From the NCBI GenBank assembly GCA_029246985.1, contig JAQWMC010000012.1, positions 1 through 39,800 on the forward strand: a stretch of DNA of 39,800 bases. The letters are read 5' to 3'. Source of the stretch: Pirellulales bacterium (GTDB taxonomy: Bacteria; Planctomycetota; Planctomycetia; Pirellulales; UBA1268). Below the pieces are notes generated by a model. It was not told where the DNA came from and ran no database searches. It was given only the letters and a program-made list of their open reading frames with translations. Below, one piece after another: positions 2,769-28,108 of this stretch. Position 1 is the first letter of the stretch. Each line of letters opens with the position of its first letter. Both the position numbers and the translations under genes were made by a program.

Positions 2769-3827
2769 ATGTCAGAAGATTCACTCGAGAATGTTGTCAT
2801 CATTGGGAGCGGCCCAGCAGGTTGGTGCGCCGCAACGTATGCCGCCAGAGCACAGTTGAACCCACTTGTTTTTGAGGGGGCTATTACTGAAGAAAATCGC
2901 ATGTCAGGAACCTTGCCACTTGGCCAGTTAGCGCTGACAAGTGAAGTAGAGAATTATGCTGGCTTCCCGGCGGGTGATCTGGCTGCATTCCTTGATTCGG
3001 CATTGCCTCAAGACCGTCGAATGATGATGGCACCACACGCTGGTGAAGGTGTAACGGGTCCAGAATTAATGGAACTCATGCGGCAGCAGGCAGTGAACTT
3101 TGGCACTCGTGTCATTACCGACGATATTCAGGAAGTAGAGTTCTCTGAAAGTCCATTCACACTGACGCGGGCAGCAGGCGGTGAAATCCGTGCCCGGAGT
3201 GTGATTGTGGCAACAGGAGCAAGTGCAAACTGGCTTGGGTTGGAGAGTGAAGAACGTTTTAAGAATCGTGGAGTCAGTGCCTGTGCAGTCTGTGATGGAG
3301 CGCTTCCGAGATTTCGTGATAAAGAACTTGTTGTGGTTGGTGGTGGAGATTCAGCCGTGGAAGAGGCCACCTATCTCACCAAGTTTGCGAGTCGAGTTCA
3401 TCTTATTCACCGTAGGGATGAGTTGCGTGCGAGCAAAATCATGGCAAAACGAGCGTATGATAGTGAGAAAATAGAAATCCACTATCATTCGAAACTGGTT
3501 GAAGTCCTTGGTGATGATACTGATGGTGTTACAGGTGTTCGGTTGCAAAGTACAACAGAATCGGGCGATGAAACCACATTAAGCGCAGCCGGTGTATTTC
3601 TGGCAATTGGTCATACGCCGAACACAGCTTTTCTGAATGGGCAGTTAGAACTAACCCCCAAGAAATATGTTGTTTGGCAAAACCATTTCCGCACATCAAC
3701 GAACATTGAGGGCGTCTTTGCAGCTGGTGACGTAGCTGATGACTATTATCGGCAGGCTATCTCTGCAGCCGGTACGGGGTGTATGGCGGCTCTTGATGCC
3801 GAACGATGGCTGGCTGAACACGAGTAG
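2769..3827 (+). CDS. trxB: Thioredoxin-disulfide reductase
   Basis: This FAD/NADPH enzyme reduces oxidised thioredoxin in the cytoplasm. The FAD-binding GSGPAG lies at residue 13, the redox-active CAVC at about residues 172-175, the NADPH-binding [10 protein letters not shown] soon after, and the second FAD motif (FAAGDVAD) near the C-terminus. At 352 residues it is slightly longer than the usual 310-330, because of extra residues in the N-terminal third (near [18 protein letters not shown]). The ATG follows a purine-rich ribosome binding site. It stands alone, divergent from the PAS-AraC gene. Its neighbour encodes a very Cys-rich secreted protein, which may be coincidence. Confidence 0.95.
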
Positions 3828-4011: not shown

Positions 4012-4503
4012 TTAGATTCCGCAAGATGGCTCGCAACCACAGGTTGGCTCGCATCCGCAGGTTGGCTCGCATCCACAAGCTGGCTCACAAGCTGGCTCAC
4101 ATCCGCAAGTTGGCTCACACCCGCAAGCTGGTTCACAACCACAAGCTGGTTCACAACCACAAGCTGGCTCACAGCAGCGACGTTGCGCTCGTCGGGCCAT
4201 CTTTGCTTCGTGAAGGCTTCGAAGCCATGTACCGAGCTTGCAGCATCGCTTCTTGGTGCAGCATCCGGAGTCACAGCAAGCTGGCTCACAACCACAGCTT
4301 GGCTCGCAGCCACAAGCTGGTTCGCAAGCTGGCTCGCAACCGCAGGTTGGCTCGCAGCCACACGTTGGCTCACAACCACAAGCCGGCTCACAGCAACCTG
4401 CTTGACCATGGTTGTGATGACCGAAAAGACCGGCTTCGGCAAAAGAACCTAGACACAATAAAAGTGCGGCCGACAGACCGCCAAAGTAAAACGCACGACT
4501 CAT
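4012..4503 (-). CDS. Secreted cysteine-rich CEPxC-repeat protein
   Basis: This 163-residue protein is predicted to be exported. It has a signal peptide (MSRAFYFGGLSAALLLCLGSF, cleavage near AEAG) and then two blocks of six-residue CEPxCG repeats, where x is Ala, Thr or Ser. I count 7 EPx units in the first block and 9 in the second. Between them is a Cys-rich basic spacer with CCTKKRCC and KMARRAQRRCC. The start at 4503 has a strong GGAGG site 7 bases upstream; the longer frame to 4608 lacks a signal peptide. The function is unknown. A disulfide-linked structural role in the cell envelope is my inference, since similar Cys-rich repeat proteins are typical of planctomycetes. At the DNA level the repeats have an 18-bp period. 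Confidence 0.85.
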   Translation of the reverse strand: MSRAFYFGGLSAALLLCLGSFAEAGLFGHHNHGQAGCCEPACGCEPTCGCEPTCGCEPACEPACGCEPSCGCEPACCDSGCCTKKRCCKLGTWLRSLHEAKMARRAQRRCCEPACGCEPACGCEPACGCEPTCGCEPACEPACGCEPTCGCEPTCGCEPSCGI

Positions 4504-4616
4504 GGGTGAGCCTCCTTGACACTTGAATAGGGAGAAAAACCGCCGAATCCGTTGATCGACAGTGAAGCGACGGAGGCGCCCGTAGCTTCCCTCAAAAATT
4601 GCACACAAAAACCTGA

Positions 4617-23815: not shown

Positions 23816-24397
23816 GTGAGAATTATTCAAGGGATTCTTGCCTGTGTTGGCAGGCTGATGATTTCCATTATCTTTTTGCTAAGTGCATTCGGAAACAAAA
23901 TTCTGAATTTCAGTAGCGTTGCAGACCTGATGGCGGCACAAGGTATGCCTCAGGATGAAATTCTGGGAATACCTGCTCATAAGTATTTACTGTGCGGTGC
24001 GATAGTATTTTTGATCTTTGGAGGACTTTCGGTTGCTGCGGGATTTAAAGCTCGTCTTGGTGCGAGCATGCTCCTTCTCTTTCTTGCGGGAGCAACCTAT
24101 TATTTCCACGACTTCTGGAACGCAGAGGCGGATCAAAAACCGACCGAAATGATTCAGTTTCTCAAGAACTTGGCACTTAGTGGCACAATGCTATTTATCA
24201 TTGCCAACGGAGCGGGTCCAGGAAGTCTTGACCAAAGGAAGAAGTCTAAGAGCATGCGTGATGACGACACGGTTGGTAGCCAAGGGACGGGCAAAAAACA
24301 GATTCGTAATTCGGATGCAGCGTCTTCCAAACCACTTCACAATCTGAGGGGCACGACTCCGGGATCTGACAGTCAGTCAACACAGCTACCCGGCTAG
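23816..24397 (+). CDS. DoxX family membrane protein
   Basis: A 193-residue protein with four hydrophobic segments (about residues 5-27, 58-78, 82-100 and 122-138) typical of DoxX/SURF4-like proteins, followed by a hydrophilic tail of about 55 residues that is longer than usual. The start is the GTG at 23816 with TTTTGGAGG 6-7 bases upstream. The last four codons (including the stop) lie antisense to the 3' end of the tRNA-Gln gene. It may follow the pseudouridine synthase in one transcript (70-base gap). The function of this family is mostly unknown; some members relate to oxidative stress or quinones. Confidence 0.82.
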   Translation: MRIIQGILACVGRLMISIIFLLSAFGNKILNFSSVADLMAAQGMPQDEILGIPAHKYLLCGAIVFLIFGGLSVAAGFKARLGASMLLLFLAGATYYFHDFWNAEADQKPTEMIQFLKNLALSGTMLFIIANGAGPGSLDQRKKSKSMRDDDTVGSQGTGKKQIRNSDAASSKPLHNLRGTTPGSDSQSTQLPG

Positions 24398-24456
24398 GAT
24401 TTGAACCTAGACTAAGGGTACCAAAAACCCTTGTGCTACCATTACACCACCGGGTA
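24386..24456 (-). tRNA. tRNA-Gln (anticodon TTG)
   Basis: A full 71-nt cloverleaf folds on the minus strand: acceptor TACCCGG/CCGGGTA with discriminator G, D arm GTGT-AATGGTA-GCAC, anticodon stem AGGGT/ACCCT with loop TTTTGGT (anticodon TTG, reading CAA), and T arm CTAGG-TTCAAAT-CCTAG. CCA is not encoded. It lies downstream of rex on the same strand, and its 3' end overlaps the end of the opposite-strand DoxX gene by 12 bp. Confidence 0.95.
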
Positions 24457-24644: not shown

Positions 24645-25391
24645 CTAGTCACGCTGGTGCGGCGATACGGTAGGCGGGTTCGTCAACACGTCATGGGGAT
24701 CAGAGGGCTGATCGGTTGGGCGATTCAGAATGCTCGTCACAGCAAAAGAAAGTTGTTCGAGCTCTATTGCAAGATCTACGGCTACTTCTTGTACGTTGGC
24801 TGGAAGGGTGAGTGTCACGGGAGCAAAATTGACAATGCCCTCGATGCCAGCCTTCACAAGATCATTGGCTGCTTCTTGTGCACGATTCGCAGGGACAACA
24901 ACCATACCCAGCCGAATTCCCTTTGTTTTGACGGTTTTAGATAATTCGTTGAGGGGCTGAATCTGAATCCCCTGAATGACTTTCCCTATTTTTTTTGAAT
25001 CGGCGTCAAAAGCTGCTTCGATAGAGAAATTCTGTTGACCAAAACCTTTGTATCCAAGAAGTGCAAGACCAAGATTGCCTGCTCCAATCATGACAACGGG
25101 CCAGGATTGGTTTGTGCCCAAGATGTCACGCATGGCGTTGATGAGTTCGTCGCAACGATAACCAACTCCTGGGTAGCCGAATTGCCCAAAAAAGCCGAGG
25201 TCTTTTCTCACCTGAGCATCACTGAAGCCAAGAAGAGTCCCGAGCTGACTGGAAGAGATAGTTTCTTTGCCCGCAGACTGAAGCCGTTGCAGTTCTCGTA
25301 GATAGAGACTGATTCTGCTGACAACAACCTTTGGAACAGTAGCGTCCGAAGGCATCTCGTTCGGGCGTTCATTTGTGTCTTCAGTCACCAT
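24645..25391 (-). CDS. rex: Redox-sensing transcriptional repressor Rex
   Basis: Rex senses the NADH/NAD+ ratio and represses fermentation and respiration genes when NADH is low. The N-terminal winged helix (about residues 20-78) includes ISLYLRELQRL, SSSQLGTLLGFSDAQVRKDL and FGQFGYPGVGY, and the Rossmann domain has MIGAGNLGLALLGY near 101. The 248 residues include a longer N-terminus and a Pro/Thr-rich C-terminal tail. I chose the ATG at 25391; the frame continues to 25541, but that part has no family similarity. The region upstream shows no clear Rex operator (TTGTGA...TCACAA). A tRNA-Gln lies downstream. Confidence 0.93.
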   Translation of the reverse strand: MVTEDTNERPNEMPSDATVPKVVVSRISLYLRELQRLQSAGKETISSSQLGTLLGFSDAQVRKDLGFFGQFGYPGVGYRCDELINAMRDILGTNQSWPVVMIGAGNLGLALLGYKGFGQQNFSIEAAFDADSKKIGKVIQGIQIQPLNELSKTVKTKGIRLGMVVVPANRAQEAANDLVKAGIEGIVNFAPVTLTLPANVQEVAVDLAIELEQLSFAVTSILNRPTDQPSDPHDVLTNPPTVSPHQRD

Positions 25392-25675
25392 GAAATATCT
25401 GCCAGACCCCAGTGGAATATTAGAAGACTTTAACCCGGGGGAATGAACTATCGCAAATCTCTCGAGTCCAACGTCCGGATGTAACGGTTGTAATGCCATA
25501 GTGACAATGGAAAAACTGCACCGATTTCGAAAAGAAATCATCCTGCGCAGAGTTTATGGGCGATCTTTAAAGAGTACTCGCTGACGTTTTATTGGCCGTA
25601 CCAATTTGCGTCCGCTGAATATTTAAGAATCGAAGGATTGATTTCTATCGGGATTGAAGAGCAAGAGAGAACGTT

Positions 25676-27646
25676 ATGAACAAGATTTTTGTCTGTGCCA
25701 TGATGTCGGTGGCAACGGTGTTACTCAGTGCAACCAAAGTTGATGCTGCTTACTGTGGGTTAGCTAACTACCAACACGGTGCCTCGAAAGTTTCTACCGT
25801 AAGCTTTTCGAAAGCTCGCAAGAATTGTAGCTGCAGTGAAGGCTGTGAGCCGTCGTGCGCAGCTCCTTCATGCTGTGGTCCTCGGCTTGTCAAGGATGTT
25901 GTTTACGAGAAGAAACAGTACACATGTTACAAAACCGTATGCGAAAAGGTTGTTGAGCAAAAGGAAATCAACTGCATTCGCTACGAGAAGGATCAATGCT
26001 ACCGGGACGTTGAGTACACAGTCTGCAAGCCGGCCTGGGAGACTCGTACAAGAACAATTCCGTACACGGTATGCAAGCCTGTGTACGAGACGAGGACGAA
26101 AGAGATTCCATACACGGTGTGCAAACCTGTGTATGAGACACGCGAGCAGTGCTACACGGTATGCAAGCCTGTGTACGAGACAAGGACGAAAGAGATTCCA
26201 TACACGGTGTGCAAACCTGTGTATGAGACCCGCGAGCAGTGTTACACGGTATGCAAGCCTGTGTACGAGACAAGGACAAAAGAAATTCCATACACAGTGT
26301 GCAAACCTGTATATGAGACACGCGAGCAGTGTTACACGGTATGCAAGCCTGTGTACGAGACGAGGACGAAAGAGATTCCATACACAGTGTGCAAGCCTGT
26401 ATATGAGACACGCGAGCAATGCTACACGGTATGCAAGCCCGTTTACGAGACGTGCACGAAAGAGATTCCGTATACAGTGTGCAAGCCTGTCTGGGAAACA
26501 CGAGAGCGAGATATTTGTCATACCATCTGTAAGCCAGTGCACTACACCAAGACTGTAAAGGTCTGCAAGGGTCACTGGGAAACTGAAAGGTGTGAAATTC
26601 CGGGGCCATTGGTCACAAAGTGTGTTCGACAGCCAGGTTGTTGGGAGACGGACTGTTCAGGGAAACGGTGTTACCATCCGGGGCCTGTGAAGAAGATTCA
26701 GGTTCAGTGCCCATCCAGGACAATCTGCAAAAAAGTATGGGTTCCTGAAATTTGTGAGAAGCAGATTGACTGTGTCCGCTATGAGCGAGAGACCATTGTC
26801 AAAAAGCAATGCTACAAAGTCTGCAAGATGGTCCAGGAGCAAAGAATCAAGACCTGCTGTTACAAGGTCTGCAAGATGGTGCCAGAGCAACGCGTACGCA
26901 CCTATAAAGTCTGCAAGATGGTGCCAGAACAGCGGGTGCGAACCTGCTCGTATAGAGTTTGCAAGATGGTACCGGAGCAACGTGTGCGAACGTACAAGGT
27001 CTGCAAGATGGTGCCAGAGCGTCGGGTTAAGACCTGCTGTTACAAGGTCTGCAAGATGGTGCCGGAGCAACGTGTTCGGACATACCAGGTTTGCAAGATG
27101 GTACCGGAGCAGCGTGTACGAACCTGCTGTTACAAGGTTTGCAAGATGGTGCCAGAGCAACGTGTACGGACGTATCAGGTTTGCAAAATGGTACCGGAGC
27201 AGCGCGTGCGGACCTGCTGCTACAAGGTTTGCAAGATGGTGCCAGAGCAACGTGTACGGACATATCAGGTTTGTAAGATGGTGCCGGAGAAGCGTGTACG
27301 AACCTGCTGTTACAAGGTCTGCAAGATGGTACCGGAGCAGCGTGTGCGGACGTATAAGGTTTGCAAGATGGTGCCGGAGCAGCGGATGAAGACATGCTCA
27401 TATCAAGTGTGCAAAATGGTTCGGGAACAGCGTTGTCGTGAAGAGTGTTACAAAGTGTGCAAGACGGTTAAAGAGACACACATAAAGAAAGTGCCTTATT
27501 GTGTGACGCGACCTGTTCACTACACAAAAACCATTGATGTTTATCGCATGGTTCCAAAGAAGGTTGCCTACACGGTGACGAAGTGTGTTCCAAAGACAGT
27601 TTGGCGTGAAGTCCCATGTGAGCCATCATGTGGATATGAGGACTAG
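25676..27646 (+). CDS. Secreted cysteine-rich YTV/CKP repeat protein
   Basis: A 656-residue secreted protein with signal peptide MNKIFVCAMMSVATVLL ... VDA. Array 1 (about residues 112-285) has 11 YTVCKP units alternating between TKEIP and EQC linkers. A Cys/Pro-rich middle (about 290-375, with GCWETDCSGKRC) follows. Array 2 (about 378-600) has 14 VCKMV units of the type YKVCKMVPEQRVRT. The ends carry CEPSC motifs (GCEPSCAAPSCC and PCEPSCGYED). The repeats belong to the YTV family that I recall from Rhodopirellula, where such Cys-rich proteins are reported in the cell wall; the structural role here is inferred. Both arrays repeat every 90 bp. An AAGAGAG site precedes the ATG. Confidence 0.88.
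   Translation: MNKIFVCAMMSVATVLLSATKVDAAYCGLANYQHGASKVSTVSFSKARKNCSCSEGCEPSCAAPSCCGPRLVKDVVYEKKQYTCYKTVCEKVVEQKEINCIRYEKDQCYRDVEYTVCKPAWETRTRTIPYTVCKPVYETRTKEIPYTVCKPVYETREQCYTVCKPVYETRTKEIPYTVCKPVYETREQCYTVCKPVYETRTKEIPYTVCKPVYETREQCYTVCKPVYETRTKEIPYTVCKPVYETREQCYTVCKPVYETCTKEIPYTVCKPVWETRERDICHTICKPVHYTKTVKVCKGHWETERCEIPGPLVTKCVRQPGCWETDCSGKRCYHPGPVKKIQVQCPSRTICKKVWVPEICEKQIDCVRYERETIVKKQCYKVCKMVQEQRIKTCCYKVCKMVPEQRVRTYKVCKMVPEQRVRTCSYRVCKMVPEQRVRTYKVCKMVPERRVKTCCYKVCKMVPEQRVRTYQVCKMVPEQRVRTCCYKVCKMVPEQRVRTYQVCKMVPEQRVRTCCYKVCKMVPEQRVRTYQVCKMVPEKRVRTCCYKVCKMVPEQRVRTYKVCKMVPEQRMKTCSYQVCKMVREQRCREECYKVCKTVKETHIKKVPYCVTRPVHYTKTIDVYRMVPKKVAYTVTKCVPKTVWREVPCEPSCGYED
26013..26530 (+). repeat. 90-bp tandem repeat array 1 inside the YTV protein gene
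   Basis: The string ATGCAAGCCTGTGTACGAGA recurs at 26071, 26161, 26251 and 26341, and in a diverged form at 26431, a strict 90-bp period equal to 30 codons. Each period encodes two YTVCKPVYETR units. The copies are nearly identical at the DNA level, which suggests recent duplication or gene conversion. Confidence 0.9.
26809..27474 (+). repeat. 90-bp tandem repeat array 2 inside the YTV protein gene
   Basis: Units encoding CYKVCKMVPEQRVRT plus YQVCKMVPEQRVRT repeat; the start ACCTGCTGT/C TACAAGGT is seen at about 27122, 27212 and 27302, again a 90-bp period. The two arrays differ in sequence but share the 30-codon period. Confidence 0.88.
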
Positions 27647-27698: not shown

Positions 27699-27728
27699 TG
27701 TGGCCCAGATCAACTGATCTGGGCCACA
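27699..27728. terminator. Strong bidirectional rho-independent terminator
   Basis: A perfect 14-bp inverted repeat (27699-27712 with 27715-27728) sits between the convergent YTV-protein gene and the clpS-like gene. On the plus strand GCTTTTC follows; on the minus strand TTTGTTTT follows. It is 53 bases after the plus-strand stop and 36 bases after the minus-strand stop, so it can end both transcripts. Confidence 0.88.
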
Positions 27729-27763: not shown

Positions 27764-28108
27764 TTATGAATCGGGTTCAATGGATGCTGACATAGCTCCC
27801 TTTGACCTGCGAATAAGTTTATCAGCACCGAAAGCATGGATTTGGTCTCGTTTGAATTCAGCGTGTTCCCGTGTTGTGGTAAGAACGATAACTTTCCCTT
27901 TTTGATCTACCTCTGTGGCCATTTTGATTCCTGTTGGCGATGGGTGACCAAAGAGCTTTTGGAGCATTGAGACAACATATTGATAGGTGTGGTCATTGTC
28001 ATTCCAAAGGACGACATGGTACCGAGGTTGCCGTCTATTGGCCCTCTTTTTACGAAAAGAGGGATTTGGCTGGACGTCTGGAACAGTGGTGGTCGCTGTT
28101 TGAGTCAT
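27764..28108 (-). CDS. clpS: ClpS-like ATP-dependent Clp protease adaptor
   Basis: A 114-residue protein of the ClpS family, which hands N-degron substrates to ClpAP/ClpCP. Seen: a basic, disordered N-terminus, RYHVVLWNDNDHTYQYVV (the substrate-pocket Asn-Asp region), then KMATEVDQKGKVIVLTTTREHAEFKRDQI. In canonical ClpS the loop reads VHxxGK, and its His contacts the substrate amino group; here the aligned residue is Asp (VDQKGK). It might therefore recognise other ligands. It is divergent from serS across 107 bases. Confidence 0.82.
   Translation of the reverse strand: MTQTATTTVPDVQPNPSFRKKRANRRQPRYHVVLWNDNDHTYQYVVSMLQKLFGHPSPTGIKMATEVDQKGKVIVLTTTREHAEFKRDQIHAFGADKLIRRSKGAMSASIEPDS

Follow-up and report, generated by a model that had tools for sequence, protein, structure and literature searches.

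The stretch of DNA analysed here, referred to as the window, comprises 39,800 nucleotides of a contig from a Pirellulales bacterium (JAQWMC010000012.1, assembly GCA_029246985.1). Its forward strand contains, at 25,676–27,646 and exactly where the original prediction had placed it in the list of open reading frames, a gene for a protein of 656 amino acids, 74 of which (11%) are cysteines. The protein is a member of the known YTV family, matching the Pfam YTV profile (PF07639) over 14 stretches with 373.7 bits (E 2.3e-114; gathering cut-off 21), such that neither the protein nor its likely location is new. Its N-terminus, MNKIFVCAMMSVATVLLSATKVDA-AYCG, is judged by eye to be a Sec-type signal sequence of residues 1–24 (25,676–25,747, + strand) with a predicted cleavage before AYCG; AlphaFold2 (AF2) draws a helix at residues 2–17, the starts of relatives are alike, and a filter picked up a signal-type start in the window protein and in all 73 of the 73 loci with a YTV gene beside rex.

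The neighbours of the gene are readily assigned. Divergent from it on the reverse strand lies rex (24,645–25,541; Pfam CoA_binding and Put_DNA-bind_N), the gene for a redox-sensing repressor, whose true start is perhaps further inside, followed on its 3' side by tRNA-Gln (ttg; 24,385–24,456, − strand), which serves in the neighbour counts as a control for synteny. On the other side is the convergent clpS (27,764–28,108, − strand; Pfam ClpS). The terminator-like hairpin of 13 pairs between the two genes (27,699–27,728) had been taken as the YTV gene's own strong terminator and hence as a sign of abundant expression; it has T-rich tails on both strands, however, and may equally serve clpS, making it uninformative on abundance. 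Elsewhere in the window a second cysteine-rich repeat protein with a signal-like start and CGCEPAC/CGCEPTC units is encoded at 4012–4608 (− strand), adjoining a gene at 2769–3827 (+ strand) which, from its motif, may be that of a thioredoxin reductase.

Downstream of the signal sequence the YTV protein has five parts, all encoded on the + strand. An N-cap (residues 70–125; 25,883–26,050) forms a long strand in the AF2 model, with a pLDDT of ~78–86 to residue 110 and lower values thereafter. It leads into array 1, or arm 1 (residues 114–297; 26,015–26,566), which consists of 12 half-units of 16 or 14 residues of the YTVCKPVYETR type. A central domain (residues 309–347; 26,600–26,716; AF2 pLDDT ~78–87), conserved in an alignment of relatives (A3) and the putative tip of a hairpin, separates this from array 2, or arm 2 (residues 380–607; 26,813–27,496), which is of the YKVCKMVPEQRVRT type with steps of 16 and 14. 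The C-cap (residues 591–646; 27,446–27,613) is again a long strand, and its predicted pairing with residues 70–125 comes from the symmetry of the AF2 strand ends.

The periodicity of the arrays is far above chance level. Tandem Repeats Finder reports a period of 90 for both, with 4.8 copies and 94% matches at 26,063–26,490 (score 716) and 5.9 copies and 84% matches at 26,852–27,385 (score 704). A strict 30-codon period common to both arrays had been proposed, and this stands, with the refinement that each 30 residues are made of a 16- and a 14-residue half-unit in alternation. The accompanying notion of two different repeat families does not: the arrays are two sub-types of one family, the 14 Pfam stretches being YTV matches throughout, and in a profile search of the genome the match to array 1 and the match to array 2 each exceed the family cut-off. 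The near-identity of the array 1 copies in DNA was seen correctly, since the four aligned units have a mean identity of 94% and identical proteins, with all nine of their nine variable columns at silent third codon positions. Array 2 is more diverged (six units, mean identity 83%, variable columns 4/4/24 by codon position). Copy number, which had been expected to change between strains, is found to change between species; a relative that is 87% identical measures 476 amino acids, with arrays shorter than those of the window protein.

Relatives of the protein were found in all 39 of the 39 genomes searched, its own included, and PF07639 in 12 of 12 genomes from other orders of the class and in none of 14 control genomes, which is a small test of restriction to planctomycetes. 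The assembly of the genome itself (2.45 Mb, 167 contigs) is incomplete, and additional YTV genes lie on three of its other contigs. One of these paralogues, cut by a contig end, has 8.4% cysteine and a central domain that is alike by eye, and two others have 1.2% and 0.5%. The first of these two (locus L093, 2889–4607, − strand; 7 cysteines in 572 residues) has a proline-rich tail and may have a job that does not involve disulfides.

As to location, the available passages of the literature report that YTV proteins were identified in walls prepared from Rhodopirellula baltica and Gemmataceae (PMC8567305) and that in Gemmata obscuriglobus walls boiled in 10% SDS they are major constituents (PMC5287468); one YTV gene is listed as essential in Planctopirus limnophila, in a group almost confined to planctomycetes (PMC10632474). 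The proposal of an extracellular, cysteine-rich structural protein is supported by these partial accounts of its relatives, by the signal sequence and by the family membership; by analogy with the relatives, for which the wall location is reported, the window protein itself is probably in the wall.

Arm lengths and step order in relatives

Arms were measured with profiles for the N-cap, the centre and the C-cap, and 64 of the 67 proteins examined have all three anchors. In 37 of the 64 the arms are equal, meaning a difference of −12, which is the offset between the anchors, with arm 1 ranging from 97 to 307 residues. Some of the measured rows are one genome met twice, and counting was therefore by distinct arm pairs: 17 of the 38 match to the residue, where permutation gives a mean of 1.05 and a maximum of 6 in 20,000, the sequences being related such that these counts, and those of step order below, are not independent. 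Arm differences mostly amount to whole 30-residue dimers (0 modulo 30 in 53 of 64). Outside the order, two of 12 proteins have the three anchors, one with equal arms (472 amino acids, difference −12) and one, weak-scoring, with arms that are not equal.

The window protein is among the 27 of 64 with unequal arms, its arm 2 being longer in this assembly than in equal-armed relatives by 60 residues, or two 30-residue dimers; this could be either real or an assembly artefact. Of the 13 proteins whose contigs reach 1 Mb or more, two have unequal arms, and assembly errors are thus unlikely to explain all cases. Nor does contig size separate the two classes significantly (equal arms in 11 of 13 proteins on large contigs versus 18 of 31 on small ones, p = 0.16), which leaves an artefactual cause unsupported. 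Short-read arm lengths do call for care, as 30 of the 52 related loci L041–L092 end inside the YTV gene.

The order of the steps mirrors between the arms. Scored on all proteins save one that contains unknown residues, 11 of the 15 non-trivial equal-armed patterns mirror fully, where shuffling leads to an expectation of 0.05. Outward from the centre, 148 of the 152 steps in the 12 irregular equal-armed patterns agree; the agreement falls to 0.50 with rotations and to 0.62 with the arms of other proteins. Among unequal-armed patterns only five of 19 show a full mirror over the overlap, several of the others suggesting one arm without alternating dimers. The window protein agrees at 10 of 12 steps, which is weakly informative, as alternating arrays mirror easily. 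Motif spacings no longer than 64 residues number 709 in 53 sequences, and every one of them is even. The two arms share their step length, whichever length is used: a relative in another family (L037, family f5) has 16-residue steps or multiples thereof in both arms, and an own-genome paralogue (contig C2) has mostly 14-residue steps.

Predicted structure and the hairpin model

For the window protein AF2 was run on a single chain with a 22-sequence alignment, and strand pairing was read from the sums of strand-end positions rather than from coordinates. Overall confidence is low, both here and for a relative from Adhaeretor mobilis (mean pLDDT 45.5 and 55.1, pTM 0.22 and 0.21, respectively); the cores of the arrays have a pLDDT below 50 and only the tip and the caps are well modelled, with block pLDDT values of 71–87 in the window protein outside the near-identical repeats (residues ~71–110, 281–370 and 601–640). 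Long strands are drawn at 70–125, 263–308, 348–393 and 591–646, partly reaching into low-confidence regions, and short ones at the tip at 312–318, 322–325, 331–334 and 338–344. The ends of the tip strands sum to one value (263+393 = 308+348 = 312+344 = 318+338 = 322+334 = 325+331 = 656) and those of the caps to another (70+646 = 125+591 = 716). The shift of 60 residues between the two registers equals the amount by which arm 2 exceeds the length expected for equal arms (48 versus −12). In the 508-residue A. mobilis protein (L069), which is encoded on a complete chromosome and has equal arms, the strand pairs 44–137/410–503, 185–253/294–362, 257–263/284–290 and 267–271/276–280 all sum to 547. 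AF2 draws, in other words, one antiparallel hairpin, of which both the path and the register are predicted. The sheet or fibre originally envisaged outside the cell is narrowed by this model to one two-stranded ribbon per chain, with the low confidence of the array cores (pLDDT below 50) bearing on the ribbon itself.

The predicted register has consequences for the cysteines. All 639 of the 639 YxVC cysteines fall on one face, as do 1190 of the 1630 array cysteines taken together, and across 35 proteins only one of 8009 facing pairs at offset 0 is Cys–Cys. Cross-strand disulfides between the arms, which were also considered, are rejected as the cysteines almost never face each other in this register. 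Charges in the same 35 proteins give a test dominated by one repeat motif: like-charge facing pairs number 17 at offset 0 and 14 at +2, and none of the 19 remaining offsets has fewer than 29; opposite-charge pairs number 870 at +2, a count exceeded only at −6 (918).

It is quite probable, in our assessment, that the YTV protein is a secreted wall protein whose arms, lying in register, make up a single long beta ribbon of two antiparallel strands. In this planctomycete, which belongs to the order of Botrimarina and Adhaeretor, the secreted chain would run out along array 1, turn at the central domain and come back along array 2, with the resulting ribbon closed by the N-cap and the C-cap. The common period of the arrays would then exist because the arms must keep register, and pairs of units would be gained or lost in both arms. 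Even step lengths, of 14 or 16 residues, would hold every YxVC cysteine on the same face of the ribbon; not facing each other across the strands, these cysteines would be free to bond neighbouring ribbons, and ribbons linked by such putative disulfides between molecules would build up a protein sacculus. An extended strand measures 0.33 nm per residue, and with 258 residues from the N-cap to the tip the window hairpin would be ~75–85 nm long if fully extended. What this interpretation adds is a reason for the shared period, namely matched and mirrored arms, together with a testable model of the build, and it applies to the YTV family rather than to the window gene alone.

The same traces in the sequence would be left if arm 1 paired antiparallel with arm 2 of a neighbouring molecule, so as to form a sheet or fibre without breaks. 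This arrangement, too, leads one to expect arms of equal length with mirrored steps, and it would moreover tolerate unequal arms, any surplus units being left for more partners; set against it is the AF2 single-chain model, albeit computed on monomers only, in which the caps close together and the tip is a tight hairpin. We consider pairing between molecules unlikely.

Conserved neighbours and the leader

Rex was found in 93 of the 118 genomes searched, which, less the window's own, gives 92 rex loci from the order. A divergent YTV gene lies within 3 kb of rex in 73 of these, representing 15 of the 19 families of the order; another 17 lack it, three of them breaking off within 2.4 kb, and two allow no decision. 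The other neighbours, clpS, serS and rluD, occur in at most six of the 92 loci, in flanks of limited length. Given this conserved divergent synteny, Rex, as an NADH-sensing repressor, might control the YTV gene such that the building of the wall follows the redox state, which would be compatible with the hairpin model. Several results make such control doubtful. Regions scoring at least 14/18 against the operator consensus number seven of 91, with 4.9% expected from shuffles, and 15 of 74 regions scored at least 8/10, with 13.3 expected; the tRNA-Gln on the 3' side of rex is equally conserved (78 of the 92 loci here, 23 of 40 beyond the order), and plain synteny may suffice; YTV is beside rex in none of the 40 rex loci from outside the order (taken from 40 of the 60 such genomes with Rex); and 26 of the 92 loci have a prepilin-like gene in between. 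With both operator scans at chance and the tRNA-Gln control as conserved, Rex is not claimed here as the regulator. The prepilin-like gene, which has a FTLIEVLIVVVI start, lies between rex and YTV on the rex strand, up to 1.5 kb upstream of rex.

Upstream of the YTV genes of many families the leaders share an order of elements, GCTAA, CCGA, a hairpin, GACCAG and the ribosome site (39 leaders, alignment A2). The hairpin of the leader model, R2, was drawn manually on the alignment before its pairs were counted, such that the proportion of paired cells (82%, versus 72% for shuffled alignments and no more than 52% for slid ones) is to some extent built in. Better evidence for the hairpin comes from the slid control and from compensatory changes; the covariation score is 0.44, versus 0.29 in shuffles and no more than 0.15 after sliding. 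RNAalifold predicted no pairs on A2, a run on the first alignment having given the hairpin; model R1 is sequence-only as a consequence and was not used. An additional hairpin, the first of the leader and located after GCTAA, pairs differently between families and is outside R2.

Searched against 33 whole genomes, R2 has one match at E <1e-7 in 20 of them, and 19 of these matches are rex-side YTV genes used in the model. In a genome outside the model (G077), where rex lies elsewhere, 47 bases separate the end of the match from a YTV start, and R2 also lies just before YTV in five loci that the model did not include. There are seven weaker matches (E 0.003–0.04), only one of which precedes a YTV gene (genome G028, E 0.029). 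R2 has no match in the window's genome, nor in any of the four genomes searched from the window's own family, and in all four of family f15 it matches no YTV leader, with two weak matches elsewhere. Against Rfam, gathering scores on 11 loci return only tRNAs, and two of the leaders have no match up to E 10. The text of PMC2864571 lists a 'Rhodopirellula-1' motif without details, with which the R2 element may be identical.

The window family has leader features of its own. A block at 25,538–25,565 (+ strand), in a leader where R2 gives no match, is conserved across an alignment of 29 leaders including that of the window. A small candidate hairpin seen by eye, ATTGG/CCAAT at 25,591–25,605 (+ strand), has the counterpart ACTGG/CCAGT in a relative. 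Between AGGAG and the start codon, leaders of this family also contain a small hairpin, CCTC-GAGA-GAGG, with altered pairs in relatives.

Remaining alternatives and known systems

Equal arms might instead be a by-product of repeat duplication, for example by coupled gene conversion, without any structural pairing. Recombination is indeed likely in view of the 94% DNA identity of the array 1 copies. The repeat type differs between the arms, however, and irregular 14/16 steps stand equidistant from the centre in reversed order, which duplication alone does not yield, making this explanation very improbable. That the protein is a soluble metal-binding or redox-buffering one, with no structural role, is suggested by its 11% cysteine; its signal sequence, the wall location of its relatives, its regular architecture and the lack of a match to any known metal-site family speak against it, and it is scarcely credible.

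The single-chain hairpin can then be put in its fuller form. On balance it is likely that YTV proteins are giant beta hairpins of one chain, whose arms co-evolve with a mirrored 14/16 code, whose motif cysteines all lie on one face such that ribbons join by that face in a covalent protein sacculus, and whose mRNA, in several families, carries a conserved structured leader absent from Rfam. With its arms matched, such a hairpin would make the length of the rod predictable from sequence and indicate which cysteines are able to bond, such that the architecture of a protein-based bacterial wall becomes testable; the mirrored spacing code between arms of one chain, if true, would be an unusual sequence rule among repeat proteins. 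In the published passages available, YTV proteins are reported as the main proteins of planctomycete walls, one of them being listed as essential in a model species, yet no structure of a relative has been solved. Among titles and the openings of abstracts, with subscription journals thinly covered, no report of a YTV structure or of a two-armed arrangement was found.

With the YTV proteins recorded in the walls of Rhodopirellula baltica, Gemmata obscuriglobus and Tuwongella immobilis, as far as the published passages go, the window protein has in common its family, richness in cysteine, repeats and secretion signal, whereas the two-armed hairpin, the mirrored steps and the leader element are absent from those passages. 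Among solved structures, Foldseek finds none similar beyond local long hairpins, and none belongs to a sequence relative. The best matches are the phi29 collar/tail (6qz9), the Andhra tail (8egr) and the lysenin pore (5ec5), the best local E values being 3.6e-4 and 4.4e-4. The hairpin stems of such pore-forming and phage tail proteins share with the window model a long antiparallel hairpin, but TM-scores of 0.03–0.22 and the lack of any sequence relation make this a resemblance of shape only; we know of no such stem with repeats in matched arms. A possible functional analogue exists within the same superphylum, in the cysteine-rich outer-membrane proteins of chlamydiae, which form a disulfide-linked protein envelope.
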